Below, in pieces: positions 7,537-42,050 of a stretch of 64,000 nt of DNA (its first letter is position 1; every line of letters starts with the position of its first letter). The translations under genes were made by a program, and so were the position numbers. Origin of the DNA: Paraburkholderia megapolitana (GTDB lineage: Bacteria > Pseudomonadota > Gammaproteobacteria > Burkholderiales > Burkholderiaceae); NCBI RefSeq assembly GCF_007556815.1, contig NZ_CP041743.1, positions 1,054,001-1,118,000 of the forward strand, given 5' to 3'. Below the pieces are notes generated by a model that was not told where the DNA came from, did not search any database, and was given only the letters and a program-made list of their open reading frames with translations.

Positions 7537-7686
7537 ATGTCTCCAACAAACGACAGCACATCAGTTGACAACGCACGCAATCACATCGAAACTGCTCGAA
7601 TGTTGACACCAATTGCCTCCTCCTTCGCCAAGTACAACCGCATGGGCGCCCGTCTGGGCGTGCCACTGGAGGCCTGCTTGCGTTAG
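7537..7686 (+). CDS. Possible small ORF, 49 residues
   Basis: An ATG-TAG frame of 49 codons encodes MSPTNDSTSVDNARNHIETA followed by a more hydrophobic end (ASSFAKYNRMGARLGVPLEA). A clear intrinsic terminator begins 22 bases after the stop, as expected for a short transcript. No ribosome site is visible before the ATG. I do not recognise the protein. It may instead be untranslated RNA ending at that terminator. Confidence 0.3.
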   Translation: MSPTNDSTSVDNARNHIETARMLTPIASSFAKYNRMGARLGVPLEACLR

Positions 7687-7708
7687 ATTTGCAGCATTGG
7701 AGTCAACG

Positions 7709-7745
7709 GGCCTCGCCGGGAATACGGACGAGGCCTTTTGCTTTT
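7709..7745 (+). terminator. Intrinsic terminator
   Basis: The arms GGCCTCG (7709-7715) and CGAGGCC (7729-7735) form a perfect seven-pair stem with a 13-base loop that can pair further. A T-rich tract, TTTTGCTTTT, follows at once. It ends transcription coming from the left, most likely of the 49-codon ORF. Confidence 0.7.
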
Positions 7746-7793
7746 ATGGCGTCTCCGTTACCGGCATCACTGCATCACCAACGGAGATGAAAA

Positions 7794-8126
7794 ATGGAAA
7801 ACACCAAGTCGTCACACGACTACACCAACCACTCGAATGAGGCGATCTACCCGACCAAAGGTCCGGCGCGGTCGACAGGTTGGGAAGCCGAACAGCACCA
7901 CGCCAGCGGAAGGAACGCAGTACACCTCCCGCTCACGAGGATCTTTCAACCTTACGAATACTGGCAGCACACAGCGCTTGACGAAGCGGAGAACGACGCA
8001 TATGTATCGTCGGCTTCCGAGCCCGATCCGCCGAAGAGTGGCTGGCCCACGGCCCCTCCTGTAGCCATCGCTAGCTGGTTACGGGGCTGGGCAATACGCG
8101 GGCTCGTTTATTTTCGTGTGCTTTAA
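7794..8126 (+). CDS. Hypothetical protein, 110 residues
   Basis: A 110-codon frame starts at ATG 7794 with GGAG eight bases upstream. The product is polar in its first two thirds (MENTKSSHDYTNHSNEAIYP) with several His and Tyr residues. It ends with a short hydrophobic, Trp-containing segment (IASWLRGWAIRGLVYFRVL). No signal peptide or known domain is visible. It stands alone between an intrinsic terminator and a perfect hairpin, in a stretch otherwise without genes. It could be a strain-specific small protein or a chance frame; codon use is only mildly GC-rich at third positions. Confidence 0.4.
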   Translation: MENTKSSHDYTNHSNEAIYPTKGPARSTGWEAEQHHASGRNAVHLPLTRIFQPYEYWQHTALDEAENDAYVSSASEPDPPKSGWPTAPPVAIASWLRGWAIRGLVYFRVL

Positions 8127-37993: not shown

Positions 37994-39259
37994 TCACGAC
38001 GCAATGAACGCTGCATTCGACGGCGCAGAGTGTGCGCGCAATGCCTCACGCAGCGCAGCGCTATCCCCCGACGGCGACGCGAATTCACGCTGCAACTGCG
38101 CGAGCGCTTCGTCGACGGACAGCGTGCTCTGCGCGCCATCGCGCCTGCGCAACGTGACGCTGCCACTGTCCGCCTCGCGTGCGCCGGCAATCGCCAGCAC
38201 CGGTACGCGATACGCGCGCGCATCGACGATCTTGCGTGGCAACCGCTCCGACCGGAGGTCGGGCAGCACCCGCAGACCCGCATCGGCAAAACGCATCGCC
38301 AGTTCGTCCGCATATGCGTATTCCCGCTCGCCGACATTGGCCACGACAATCTGGTCGGGCGCGAGCCAGCCCGGCAGCCAGCCGTCGTGATGTTCGAGCA
38401 GAACGCCGATGAAACGCTCGAGGCTACCCAGCACCGCGTGATGAATCATCACAGGCCGTGCCTTCGCTCCGTCGCGACCGATGTAGTTCGCGTCGAGCCG
38501 CTCGGGCAGCACGTAATCGAGCTGCGCCGTTCCGCATTGCCAGCTTCGTCCGTAGCGGTCCGTCAATAGAAACTCAAGCTTCGGACCATAGAACGCCCCT
38601 TCGCCCGGCTGAATCCGCACCGCAAGATCCGCCGCCACAGCCGCCTGCGCGAGCAGCGCTTCGGCGCGGTCCCACATCGTATCGTCGCCGGCGCGCTGCG
38701 CAGGCCGCGTCGATAGCGCGACATCGAAGCCCGCAAAACCGAAATCCGCATACACGTGACGCAGCAGCACGCAAAACCGCACGAGTTCGCTGACTACCTG
38801 TTCTTCCGCGCAGAAGACATGTGCGTCGTCTTGCGTGAAGGCCCGTGCACGCATCAAGCCATGCAGCGAGCCGGAAGGCTCCGCACGATGCACTGCACCG
38901 AACTCCGCGTAGCGAACCGGCAACTCGCGCCAGGAACGCACGCGCTTGTTGAAGATCTGCACGTGGCATGGGCAACTCATCGGCTTCAGGCACGCGACAT
39001 GACCGTCGTTATCGAGTGCGTACATGTTCGCGCCGAACTTGTCCCAATGACCGCTCTGTTCCCACAACGAGCGCGCAAGCAGTTGCGGCGTACGGATCTC
39101 GCGAAAGCCGGCCTGCTGCATACGCGCGTGAATATAGCCTTCCACCGCGCGATATAACGCTAGCCCGCGCGGATGCCAGAAAATCATCCCGGGACCTTCG
39201 TCCTGCTGGTGAAACAGATCGAGCGCATTGCCGAGCGCCCGGTGATCGACGTCTTCCAC
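37994..39259 (-). CDS. Short threonyl-tRNA synthetase without TGS and editing domains
   Basis: A 421-residue class II synthetase that should charge tRNA-Thr. The GTG at 39259 has AAGGAG six bases upstream; a further GTG at 39283 lacks one. It begins directly at the catalytic domain (motif 1 region GMIFWHPRG), so the TGS and editing domains of the usual 640-residue enzyme are absent. Zinc ligands are kept: Cys96 in LKPMSCPCH, His147 in FTQDDAHVFC and His273 in PVMIHHAV. Motif 2 (GAVHRAEPSGSLHGLM) and the motif 3 Arg282 (LGSLERFIG) are intact. The usual MIHRA reads MIHHA and CPGH reads CPCH. A C-terminal anticodon-binding domain starts near 300. Control is by the threonine attenuator just upstream. 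Confidence 0.93.
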   Translation of the reverse strand: MEDVDHRALGNALDLFHQQDEGPGMIFWHPRGLALYRAVEGYIHARMQQAGFREIRTPQLLARSLWEQSGHWDKFGANMYALDNDGHVACLKPMSCPCHVQIFNKRVRSWRELPVRYAEFGAVHRAEPSGSLHGLMRARAFTQDDAHVFCAEEQVVSELVRFCVLLRHVYADFGFAGFDVALSTRPAQRAGDDTMWDRAEALLAQAAVAADLAVRIQPGEGAFYGPKLEFLLTDRYGRSWQCGTAQLDYVLPERLDANYIGRDGAKARPVMIHHAVLGSLERFIGVLLEHHDGWLPGWLAPDQIVVANVGEREYAYADELAMRFADAGLRVLPDLRSERLPRKIVDARAYRVPVLAIAGAREADSGSVTLRRRDGAQSTLSVDEALAQLQREFASPSGDSAALREALRAHSAPSNAAFIAS

Positions 39260-39300
39260 GATATTCTCCTTCGGGTTGTGCACGCGAGCCGGACGGAGAA

Positions 39301-39332
39301 TAAAAAAAGCCCCGTCCTCTGCGGGCGGGGCT
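39301..39332 (-). terminator. Attenuator terminator of the ThrRS-like gene
   Basis: On the minus strand the arms AGCCCCG (39332-39326) and CGGGGCT (39314-39308) form the stem, with two further C-G pairs possible beyond one mismatch. A run of seven Ts follows at 39308-39302. It lies between the leader peptide stop (39358) and the ThrRS start (39259). Part of its 5' arm and loop (39329-39323, CCCGCCC) is perfectly complementary to GGGCGGG at 39388-39382 near the end of the leader ORF, giving a mutually exclusive antiterminator. Confidence 0.82.
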
Positions 39333-39357
39333 TTGGGTGTCTTGCGACGCGTCTACA

Positions 39358-39435
39358 TCAGCGCATGCGATCTCCCCGCGACCCGCCCATGGCGGTCGTG
39401 GTGGTGGTCGTGGTGGTGATGAAGTGTGCGTTCAT
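39358..39435 (-). CDS. Threonine leader peptide (25 residues, eight Thr in a row)
   Basis: The minus strand reads MNAHFITTTTTTTTAMGGSR and then GDRMR before a TGA at 39360-39358. Eight threonine codons (ACC/ACG) occupy 39417-39394. The count is far above chance, and the ORF is followed by an intrinsic terminator ahead of a threonyl-tRNA synthetase gene. This is the layout of transcription attenuation: ribosomes stall on the Thr codons when charged tRNA-Thr is scarce, freeing GGGCGGG (39388-39382) to pair with the terminator arm. No ribosome site is visible; the promoter lies so close that the mRNA may begin at or near the AUG. Confidence 0.85.
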   Translation of the reverse strand: MNAHFITTTTTTTTAMGGSRGDRMR

Positions 39436-39441
39436 GCGATG

Positions 39442-39471
39442 ACTGTAATGGCGGCGTGACGTGGTTGTCAA
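39442..39471 (-). promoter_or_regulatory. Promoter of the threonine leader
   Basis: A consensus -35 TTGACA (39471-39466) and a -10 TACAGT (39447-39442) are separated by 18 bases on the minus strand. The -10 ends six bases before the leader peptide AUG, so transcription should start at or very near the AUG, giving a leaderless or nearly leaderless leader mRNA. Confidence 0.7.
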
Positions 39472-39568
39472 TTTGCACGTGATTGCGGAAAGTCGTCGTA
39501 GGATAGTGCGTAGCGATTGTATAAACCACACGTCGCGCTCCTACGAGCGCACCAAGGAGGATTCACCG

Positions 39569-40060
39569 TTGCCGATTCACATCCGTCCAGCCGTCGAACA
39601 CGACGCACCGCTGATCCTGCAATTCATCACCGAACTTGCTGTGTACGAGAAAGCCGAGCATGAAGTCGTGGCCACCGCCGACACCATCCGCACGAGCCTC
39701 TTCTCAACCGGCTCGCCAGCGCACGCGCTGATCTGCGAAATCGACGGAGAGCCCGCGGGCTTTGCGGTGTATTTCTTTTCGTACTCGACGTGGCTCGCGC
39801 AGAAGGGGCTGTACCTGGAAGACCTGTACATCTCGCCGCGGTTTCGCGGTACCGGCGCCGGCAAGCGCCTGCTGCATCATCTCGCGCAACAGGCCATCGC
39901 CGATGGTTGTGGACGCTTCGAATGGAGCGTGCTCGACTGGAACGAGCCGGCCATCCGCTTTTACGAAACGGTCGGCGCGAGCCCGCAGTCCGAGTGGGTG
40001 CGCTATCGCCTCGCCGGCGAAGCGCTGCGCGCATTCGCGGGACAAACCGTCGCGTCATAA
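39569..40060 (+). CDS. GNAT family N-acetyltransferase (diamine-acetyltransferase-like)
   Basis: A 163-residue GNAT enzyme. I take the TTG at 39569 as start because AAGGAGG lies eight bases before it and the protein then opens IHIRPAVEHDAPLILQFI, the usual first strand and helix. YLEDLYISPRFRGTGAGKRLL is the acetyl-CoA loop, and LDWNEPAIRFYETVGA the last motif. The GLYLEDLYI and LDWNEPAI wording is typical of spermidine/spermine-acetyltransferase-like bacterial enzymes, so a polyamine or amino acid substrate is plausible. It is divergent from the threonine attenuator. Confidence 0.9.
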   Translation: MPIHIRPAVEHDAPLILQFITELAVYEKAEHEVVATADTIRTSLFSTGSPAHALICEIDGEPAGFAVYFFSYSTWLAQKGLYLEDLYISPRFRGTGAGKRLLHHLAQQAIADGCGRFEWSVLDWNEPAIRFYETVGASPQSEWVRYRLAGEALRAFAGQTVAS

Positions 40061-40088: not shown

Positions 40089-40346
40089 CGTACCTGCCCG
40101 CTCCGTGCAACGCGGACGCGGGCCCTTCATCCACCCGGGCTCTTTCCCAAATCTTGCAGCCCCTCTCACGGTTCCTTTCGAAACTGCATCTTTTGGTAAG
40201 AACATCGAAAGCGAGCCGTCTCTATAGCTTCACACCTGAATGTTCCAATGCGAACGCTCTGATGCACGCCCCAACCGGCTCCGCATTGGCAGTGCGCCGA
40301 CCCCACACGCATGGCGCGCAGTCCGCCGATACCGGAGACCCGAACA

Positions 40347-42050
40347 ATGAAATCAACCAACCAAGTGGAGCCTCGCAATATGTTTCGTCGAGCCTTGATC
40401 GCTGTCCCGCTCACTGGACTGGCGCTCGCGATGTATGCCTGCGGCAGCAACAACGACATTAAAAGCGTCACCGCGCAGAACGCGCTGAAGACGGCCACCC
40501 CCATCAAGCACCTCGTTGTGATCTACAACGAAAACATCTCGTTCGACCACTACTTCGGGACTTACCCGAACGCGACGAACCCGAGCGGTGAGCCGACCTT
40601 CAACGCCGCGTCCGGCACGCCGACCGTCAACGGTCTGACCGGCTCGCTGCTGACCGCGAACCCGAACTCGACGAACACCGCCAACGGCGCAAACGCTGCG
40701 AACCCGTTCCGTCTCGATCGCACGCAGGCCGCGACCGCCGACCAGAACCACTCGTACACGCCGGAACAGCAGGCTGAGGACAACGGCGCCGCCGACCTGT
40801 TCCCGAAATACACCGGCAACGGCACGAGCGGTGGTGCAGGCGCATTCGGCACGAAGGGCCAGGTCATGGGCTACTTCGACGGCAACACGGTCACCGCGCT
40901 GTGGAATTACGCGCAGAAATTCGCGATGAGCGACAACGCGTATACGTCGACCTACGGTCCGTCGACACCGGGCGCACTCGAAGTCGTGTCGGGCCAGACT
41001 AACGGCATGCAGATCGTCAAGACGACGAAGCAGCCGTCGACGCTCGCCGCCACCTCGTACTACATCAACGACGGCCAGGGCGGCCTGACGATGATCAACG
41101 ACGTCGATCCGGGCAACGACGTGTGTTCCAGCACCACCGATACCGCGCTGATGACCGGCAAGAACATCGGTGATCTGCTGAACGCGCAGAAGATCACGTG
41201 GGGCGGCTTCATGGGCGGCTTCAACCTCGGCACGACCAACGGCAACGGCACGACCGGCTGCAAGCGCAGCACGATCGCGACCGCCGTGAACGCTGCAACG
41301 GCCGACTACGTTCCGCACCACAACTGGTTCCAGTACTTCGCATCGACGGCTAACCCGCAGCACACGCGCCCGAGCGCAACTGCGGCCATCGGCCAGAGCC
41401 TCGAAGCCGACGGCAAGACGCCGGAACCGGCGAACCACGAGTACGACACCGACGATTTCTTCGCAGCGGTGCAGGCCGGCAACTATCCGTCGGTCAGCTT
41501 CCTGAAGGCACCGGCCGCGCAGGACGGGCATGCTGGCTACTCGGATCCGCTCGACGAACAGGCTTTCGTCACCAAGGTGATCAACTTCCTGCAGCAGCAG
41601 CCGGACTGGAACAGCACCGCGGTCGTCGTCACGTATGACGACTCGGACGGCTGGTACGACCATCAGTACACGACGCCGACGAACCCCTCGTTCAGCGCCA
41701 TCGACCAGTTGAACGGCAACGCTGTATGCGGTACCGGCTCGCCGCTCTCGGGCGTTGCTGGCACCGGTCCGGTCAACGGTCGCTGCGGTCCCGGTGTGCG
41801 GATTCCGTTCCTCGTGATCTCGCCGTGGGCGAAGACGAACTACGTCGATCACACGCTCATCGACCAGGCATCGGTGGTGCGTTTCATCGAGGACAACTGG
41901 CTGGGCGGCACGCGGCTTGGTGGCGGTGCGTTCGACGCAACCGCGGGCGACATCCGCGGCTTGCTCAACCTGAGCGGCACCGCGAACACGACGCCGCTGT
42001 ACCTCGATCCGACGCTCGGCACGCAGGTCAGCACGCCGCCGGCACTCTGA
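40347..42050 (+). CDS. PF04185-type phosphoesterase (acid phosphatase/phospholipase C family)
   Basis: A 567-residue exported enzyme of the alkaline-phosphatase superfamily that hydrolyses phosphomonoesters or phospholipids. The ATG at 40347 has GGAG nine bases upstream; a second ATG at 40380 is also possible. An N-terminal hydrophobic stretch ends at ALAMYAC, a poor lipobox, so it is either a lipoprotein or cleaved nearby. The metal site begins at LVVIYNENISFDHYFGTYP (the usual ENxSFDHYFG). AVVVTYDDSDGWYDHQYT and GVRIPFLVISPWAK supply later ligands. A long Asn/Thr-rich loop (about 85-140) is also present. It is followed, 144 bases on, by a dihaem peroxidase gene on the same strand. Confidence 0.9.
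   Translation: MKSTNQVEPRNMFRRALIAVPLTGLALAMYACGSNNDIKSVTAQNALKTATPIKHLVVIYNENISFDHYFGTYPNATNPSGEPTFNAASGTPTVNGLTGSLLTANPNSTNTANGANAANPFRLDRTQAATADQNHSYTPEQQAEDNGAADLFPKYTGNGTSGGAGAFGTKGQVMGYFDGNTVTALWNYAQKFAMSDNAYTSTYGPSTPGALEVVSGQTNGMQIVKTTKQPSTLAATSYYINDGQGGLTMINDVDPGNDVCSSTTDTALMTGKNIGDLLNAQKITWGGFMGGFNLGTTNGNGTTGCKRSTIATAVNAATADYVPHHNWFQYFASTANPQHTRPSATAAIGQSLEADGKTPEPANHEYDTDDFFAAVQAGNYPSVSFLKAPAAQDGHAGYSDPLDEQAFVTKVINFLQQQPDWNSTAVVVTYDDSDGWYDHQYTTPTNPSFSAIDQLNGNAVCGTGSPLSGVAGTGPVNGRCGPGVRIPFLVISPWAKTNYVDHTLIDQASVVRFIEDNWLGGTRLGGGAFDATAGDIRGLLNLSGTANTTPLYLDPTLGTQVSTPPAL

Follow-up and report, generated by a model that had tools for sequence, protein, structure and literature searches.

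A spare aminoacyl-tRNA synthetase under the control of a stalling ribosome has a precedent. In 2010 Vecchione and Sello reportedly described an auxiliary, antibiotic-resistant tryptophanyl-tRNA synthetase (TrpRS) under ribosome-mediated attenuation, said to be an indolmycin-resistant enzyme of Streptomyces with a leader that carries Trp codons. Among the systems considered here this is the closest, being likewise a spare synthetase with an attenuator. The thrZ gene of Bacillus subtilis, a duplicate threonyl-tRNA synthetase (ThrRS) gene, uses a conserved antitermination element, the T-box. The Thr operon leader (RF00506), found before thrABC in enterobacteria, combines a Thr-rich peptide with mutually exclusive hairpins and a terminator. 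According to PMC4787780 and PMC9437257, both thrZ and ThrRS T2 of Anabaena are inducible duplicates. Obafluorin producers carry a second ThrRS, ObaO. We found no report of a ThrRS attenuator of the present kind in the open-licence literature, and PMC2965389 and PMC4833913 likewise yielded none.

The locus described here encodes a short ThrRS (ThrRS2) and lies in the window, which is the whole stretch of 64,000 nucleotides of Paraburkholderia megapolitana DNA that was analysed. The best Rfam match of its leader is RF00506, over the full length of the model, with 20.7 bits and an E of 0.1; no Rfam family reaches its gathering score in the window (55 bits for Thr_leader; rnk_pseudo scores 20.6). 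The leader differs from RF00506 in that it controls a synthetase and not biosynthesis, has a pure Thr run without Ile, is probably leaderless, has region 1 inside the Thr run, and is followed by a hairpin at the ribosome site. Compared with the attenuated TrpRS, the amino acid and the phylum are different, and the cassette is shared with genes that do not encode synthetases. thrZ and T2 differ by conserved-element antitermination and low zinc; as stated, the window has no Rfam family at gathering score. A related locus (L164/L275) has a ThrRS with the S463 and M489 of ObaO as described in the available text, whereas the window ThrRS2 belongs to a separate, shorter group with Gly463. Attenuation is known in kind, and the best reading is that it is used here as a transferable alarm for Thr-tRNA charging.

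Anatomy of the locus and of ThrRS2

The features of the locus are given in Table 1. The first-pass annotation listed a consensus promoter, an ORF of 25 codons with an unbroken run of eight for Thr, a hairpin with a U7 tract, and a ribosome site followed by a ThrRS gene, and all of these were found again. The promoter is the one promoter-like site in 39200-39600, where shuffles expect 0.1. A search for six successive ACN codons in the window gives three overlapping matches, all inside the leader (shuffles expect 0.00). The whole genome, of 7.63 Mb in 3 contigs, has only 3 runs of eight when these are counted without regard to frame, and a reversed control has 1. The terminator stem and its seven T are seen in the predicted fold of the whole leader, which has an energy of -61.5 kcal/mol (z -2.3, with 3 of 200 shuffles equally good); a simple terminator scan missed this stem and listed a different one inside the ThrRS gene. 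GGGCGGG (39388-39382) is the exact complement of CCCGCCC in the terminator arm, just as the annotation had it.

Table 1. Predicted features of the ThrRS2 locus (window positions)
Feature	Position	Strand	Remarks
Sigma-70-type promoter TTGACA-N18-TACAGT	39442..39471	minus	ends 6 nt 5' of the leader ATG
-35 element TTGACA	39471-39466	minus	followed by an 18-nt spacer
-10 element TACAGT	39447-39442	minus	
Leader ORF	39358..39435	minus	MNAHFITTTTTTTTAMGGSRGDRMR and stop; 25 codons; eight consecutive Thr codons at 39417-39394
Region 1	39391..39398	minus	CGACCGCC; last Thr codons and the next codon; partner of region 2
Region 2	39379..39388	minus	GGGCGGGTCG; takes part in either the 1:2 hairpin or the 2:3 antiterminator
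Region 3	39323..39329	minus	CCCGCCC; inside the terminator stem (5' arm); can pair with region 2 instead
Terminator hairpin and U7 tract	39302..39334	minus	stem 39334-39306; seven T at 39308-39302
Predicted hairpin at the ribosome site	39263..39301	minus	ATTCTCC (39301-39295) with GGAGAAT (39269-39263); ThrRS ribosome-binding site paired
Ribosome site GGAG	39269-39266	minus	5' of the ThrRS GTG start at 39259
ThrRS2	37994..39259	minus	421 aa; GTG start; catalytic core and anticodon domain; without TGS and editing domains

ThrRS2 scores 447.6 bits against TIGR00418 (curated cut-off 383.65), covering profile positions 170-564 only. Its Pfam matches are PF00587 and PF03129, with none to TGS or tRNA_SAD. 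Since only the catalytic and anticodon-binding domains are matched, ThrRS2 lacks the TGS and editing domains, in agreement with the earlier description of a short, editing-free enzyme. The same genome has a separate full-length ThrRS, which is 51% identical to ThrRS2 across the core.

The zinc ligands C334, H385 and H511 are all present in 99 of 99 short-ThrRS rows. Gly463 (E. coli numbering) is likewise found in 99 of 99, near copies counted, so that the Ser typical of ObaO is absent at this position from all the short rows and from the window enzyme, which has Gly463 and Leu489. The residue beside each zinc ligand is substituted in the short enzymes: N333S in 99/99, I386V in 96% and R512H in 96/99. 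Among the long rows N333S occurs in 2/65 and R512H in 0/65.

In an unrooted tree of 29 short representatives and 65 long ThrRS, the branch separating the two has a support of 100/100. Myxococcaceae, Alphaproteobacteria and Burkholderiaceae all lie on the short side, a pattern that fits a single origin in which gene and switch would have been transferred together. The nearest flanking ORFs revealed no conserved operon around ThrRS2; the neighbour shared most widely, a divergent GNAT gene, is common to 12 loci. Near ThrRS2 in the window (40311-42050, plus strand) is a protein of the phospholipase C / acid phosphatase kind, which scores under the curated cut-offs.

Conservation and alternative pairing of the leader

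All 144 genomes searched in the genus have a ThrRS match, and 52 have a second, short ThrRS, with 61-100% identity. Genus genomes and named contigs, with some genomes in both, gave 68 short-ThrRS loci (69 minus the duplicate L002) with 66 distinct leaders. The loci were picked by similarity of the protein and not of the leader, and they span Paraburkholderia, Burkholderia, Alphaproteobacteria and Myxococcota. Homologues lacking the Thr run or the terminator were sought among them, and the result favours the first-pass interpretation. The core formed by region 2 and the terminator is present in 68/68, in two phyla. Five or more Thr codons in eight were found at 63 of the 68, and at none of 63 full-length ThrRS loci; the remaining five of the 68, all from Bradyrhizobium, have 3-4 in eight. 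The full-length control covers the 300 nt upstream of the frame-opening stop and none of the sequence between this stop and the true start; two of the 65 were without upstream sequence. Attenuator control is the rule for the short ThrRS paralogue among the loci read, contrary to the first-pass statement that synthetase genes are rarely controlled in this way in beta-proteobacteria.

TTGAC lies 35-37 nt 5' of the leader ATG at 61 of the 68 loci (51 at 36 nt), compared with 41 of 3450 random positions (1.2%), and in no fewer than 52 of these 61 a TANNNT hexamer stands 6 nt away from the ATG. From this fixed spacing we infer that leader mRNAs, including that of the window, probably have no 5' UTR, the RNA starting at or next to the ATG. 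The U tract is weak (CCTTTGGCGTTTC or similar) in most Paraburkholderia leaders, and absent in the three Myxococcaceae leaders.

The pairing was analysed across the 66 leaders. The 1:2 helix, in its majority register, is paired in 89.6% of cells and the terminator helix in 93.9%; jointly, 1:2 and 3:4 reach 92.6%, compared with 23-51% in slid controls. Their covariation score is 0.124 as against 0.062 in shuffles (0/500 as high), and their double-change pairs are not above shuffles (209/500 as high). Of the 2:3 pairs, six (columns 44-49 with 125-130) are present in 64-66 leaders, and the outer pair 43-131 fails in 47. For 2:3, 88.3% of cells are paired, against 31-58% in slid controls; this share is no better than that of column shuffles (195/500 as high), and the 2:3 covariation score is equalled in 4/500. 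The columns of 1:2 and 2:3 hardly vary, which makes covariation there weak. Alignment was expected to show conserved Thr runs with compensating changes in the stems. The Thr runs are indeed conserved, but compensation in 2:3 comes down to one C-G to U-A exchange in L017, which preserves 2:3 and breaks 3:4.

Region 1 consists, in most Paraburkholderia, of the Thr codons themselves, ACG ACG ACC. Static folds ending before region 4 were calculated in both states, and the median probability of 2:3 rises from 0.01 with region 1 to 0.90 without it (63 leaders). Together with the conserved pairing, this upholds the two exclusive folds proposed in the first-pass annotation. The window leader itself does not follow the median, having a 2:3 probability of 0.93 with region 1 and 0.99 without, and at least five others (L006, L011, L122, L028 and L059) have 0.75-1.00 despite region 1. 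The pairings 1:2, 2:3 and 3:4 are mutually exclusive, and in the window leader's static fold 1:2 loses to 2:3; as 2:3 is already likely there and in the others just named, 1:2 would have to form first in these leaders.

On these grounds the window leader is very probably a transcription attenuator of the ribosome-mediated kind, which senses how well tRNA-Thr is charged, with ThrRS2 made on shortage. Judging from the promoter spacing, RNA polymerase would begin on the first base of the leader ATG or beside it, and ribosomes would load on a leaderless ORF. With tRNA-Thr charged, the ribosome would pass the Thr codons, 1:2 would pair, and the terminator 3:4 would end transcription. With charged tRNA-Thr in short supply, it would stall on the Thr run and cover region 1; 2:3 would then pair, no terminator would form, and ThrRS2 would be made and restore charging.

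The same leader before other genes

A covariance model built from the 66 leaders matches 186 of 398 family genomes, in 12 of 25 genera, at an E of 1e-3 or better, and 116 of the 144 genus genomes at 1e-6. It also matches 58 of 398 phylum genomes, many of them weakly, and many of the phylum matches near E 1e-4 are probably due to chance. Partial and opposite-strand matches, and the short full-model matches L192 and L193, were left out, and genes were then read behind 121 of the better matches. Their names come from the sequence, and Pfam was applied to one or two genes per main class (PF00857, PF03992, PF07690, PF11142 and PF06568 were found). There are 39 isochorismatase-type hydrolases, 35 ThrRS, 13 DUF2917-type proteins, 7 ABM monooxygenases, 6 DUF1127-type proteins of Bradyrhizobium, 3 MFS proteins and 17 single genes, with no gene behind one match. 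The ThrRS count includes one full-length enzyme and one place counted twice (L150 = L199), and some of its rows duplicate loci of the homologue set (for example L267 and L222).

The hydrolase, ThrRS, ABM and MFS leaders that have an assigned ORF are Thr-rich. Those of the DUF2917 and DUF1127 classes, and a second leader in the window, share the core without a Thr run. Five matches have no assigned leader ORF (L212, a second match, and L214, L217, L256 and L264), and L195 was rejected as a leader, being a false match of the model to coding sequence. The MFS protein is closest to the drug exporters MdtH and YdeE, at scores far under the cut-off. The model also recovers a leader before a thrA-like gene (L191) from another order of the same class, which we take to resemble the thr leader of E. 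coli.

Of the 144 genus genomes, 17 have the hydrolase (E 1e-30), and a model match lies directly 5' of it in 17/17 (16 loci were read and G121 was placed by coordinates). None of the 17 has a second ThrRS or a ThrRS2-type leader. There are 55 ThrRS2-type leaders in the genus at 84.9 bits or more, three of which (G016, G077, G124) precede a gene that looks truncated or disrupted. The complete lack of overlap in the genus has a chance p of 1.5e-4, uncorrected for kinship. If ThrRS2 and the hydrolase are alternative answers to one threat, this would explain why no genus genome has both. A general mutual exclusion was rejected: it applies within the genus, and G443 and G238 have both. Asp15 and Lys89 are invariant in 37/37 hydrolases, and the expected catalytic Cys is not among the invariant positions of these 37 rows, of which at least one (L209) is frame-shifted. 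Asp15, Lys89 and the Cys are presumably the catalytic residues.

Some of these genes share more than the pairing pattern with ThrRS2. The three MFS genes are 85-87% identical in DNA to the ThrRS2 locus L220 across 261-289 nt, from 5' of the leader to 52-75 nt into the ORF, and their proteins start with MDDCDRRxSG..VDPF, much like ThrRS2 (MDDCDHRVLGNKLDLF). Four of the seven ABM genes were compared; their shared DNA (72-79% over 196-255 nt) runs from the promoter region and stops 4-19 nt into the ORF. At L164, with its full-length ThrRS, the shared stretch measures 159 nt (79%) and is confined to the leader. Hydrolase leaders match ThrRS2 leaders weakly. From the DNA shared by ThrRS2 loci with the MFS, ABM and L164 loci, we infer that the cassette has been taken over at least three times.

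Several further leaders were noted. The second leader of the window (7565-8126, plus strand) has the architecture of an attenuator, again without a Thr run, and is conserved in G001. TTGAC lies 35 nt 5' of the ATG at 7600, the leader MLTPIASSFAKYNRMGARLGVPLEACLR ends with a stop (7600-7686), and it is followed by a putative terminator (GCCTCGCCGG..CGGACGAGGC and T4), a CTCCGTT:AACGGAG hairpin at the ribosome site, and an ORF of 110 aa (7794-8126) with no Pfam match. The leaders of the DUF2917-type genes (assigned by Pfam on L250 only) have a common motif that is not a run, AIKNRMNAI.GGSSG.RVR or AINHPMNAI, at L210, L213, L249, L250, L252, L259, L260, L262, L265, L268, L272-L274, L299-L302 and L304; these are perhaps arrest peptides sensing a signal other than an amino acid. 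The Bradyrhizobium leaders L175, L176, L178, L179, L181 and L182 have the same core before DUF1127-type proteins (Pfam on L179 only), and several end in NHMTRFGWAVGGVVR. In G006 the model has a second match (L267, 251-400), roughly 1 kb 5' of the ThrRS2 leader, with no convincing gene.

The inducing signal and the rival readings

The device would respond to the charging of tRNA-Thr, and in nature a blocked housekeeping ThrRS may set it off no less than a lack of threonine does. This reading of the trigger comes from the genes that the cassette controls in relatives, namely the hydrolase, the monooxygenase, the exporters and an ObaO-like ThrRS. The last is the full-length ThrRS of L164/L275, which lies under a Thr leader and has S463 and M489. 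According to PMC11252418 the same two replacements characterise ObaO, and in E. coli ThrRS it is G463S that confers resistance to both obafluorin and borrelidin, L489M giving no obafluorin resistance; ObaO is also treated in PMC10619133, and PMC9880928 has the diphenol of obafluorin binding the zinc of ThrRS. M489 is not rare (4/65 long rows). No obvious biosynthetic cluster was seen by eye in about 20 kb at L275. A DNA motif of the type GEGAFY[S]PK is present in two of the 398 family genomes, and the idea that every S463 ThrRS has a Thr leader was rejected, as one of the two has it (G158) and the other does not (G216). In G216 the full-length ThrRS with the S463-type motif (L288, 9306) has no Thr-run leader that we could find upstream.

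The first-pass annotation proposed that ThrRS2 is a backup, or a form resistant to inhibitors such as borrelidin or obafluorin. The set of genes and the ObaO-like ThrRS favour defence against inhibitors, but the resistant form cannot be explained by G463S in the window, the enzyme having Gly463. The replacements beside the zinc ligands might tie ThrRS2 to obafluorin as a zinc-binding inhibitor, and are suggestive only. We regard a role in defence against ThrRS inhibitors as about evenly balanced.

A plain back-up against threonine starvation, with ThrRS2 as a high-affinity or zinc-sparing spare and no link to antibiotics, is somewhat unlikely. The device would be unable to distinguish starvation from inhibition, the clade has its substitutions beside all three zinc ligands (N333S 99/99, R512H 96/99, I386V 96%), and in the available parts of PMC4787780 and PMC9437257 Anabaena uses its duplicate ThrRS at low zinc, all of which would suit such a spare. 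The hydrolase, the ABM monooxygenase, the exporter and the S463 ThrRS are, however, odd targets for it, and apart from the thrA-type L191 no threonine-biosynthesis gene was noticed behind the 121 matches read, all from among the better ones, nor in 18 further stretches (three of them already counted).

It is quite unlikely that translation is the main output, by way of the hairpin at the ribosome site and a 4:5 / 5:6 cascade in which 2:3 frees region 4 for the anti-SD strand. The hairpin recurs with differing sequences (CTCCGTTT:AAACGGAG, GTTTCTCC:GGAGAAAC), and it is stronger with its own partner than with partners from other classes at 75 of 94 ThrRS and 32 of 35 hydrolase loci, although this fails for ABM (3/7) and DUF2917 (1/9). 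In two Bradyrhizobium loci region 4 pairs with the anti-SD strand at -19.0 kcal/mol (0/200 shuffles as strong), and Myxococcaceae have no U tract. Against this, when 2:3 is forced the ribosome site becomes freer in 13 of 63 leaders and more hidden in 4, with a median change of 0.004, and only 13 of 65 cases have a 4:5 pairing that at most 10 of 200 shuffles equal. The ribosome site is predicted to be still paired in the antiterminated state in most of the 63 leaders. As a general rule the six-segment cascade was unsupported by folding and shuffles.

That the Thr run and the core are a coincidence of coding or repeats with no regulatory role is highly improbable: 1:2 and 2:3 covary weakly in their nearly invariant columns, but the core is present in 68/68 loci from two phyla and a model match precedes 17/17 hydrolase genes of the genus.

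Beyond the attenuator itself, we tentatively propose, at a confidence somewhat below even, an alarm cassette that has spread horizontally through Burkholderiaceae and some other soil bacteria and was captured at least three times (by MFS, ABM and full-length ThrRS genes). Once an antibiotic aimed at ThrRS blocks charging, the cassette would induce the gene behind it, be this a ThrRS (spare or resistant), a hydrolase, an exporter or an ABM monooxygenase, with ThrRS2 and the hydrolase as alternative answers. If this is true, one RNA device flags genes that protect against ThrRS poisoning, and it would be an example of a regulatory leader captured by other genes. Compounds that induce a reporter would then be a route to ThrRS inhibitors, and the genes behind the cassette a source of new resistance and detoxification enzymes. 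The conditional retention of an editing-free spare ThrRS would likewise become testable.
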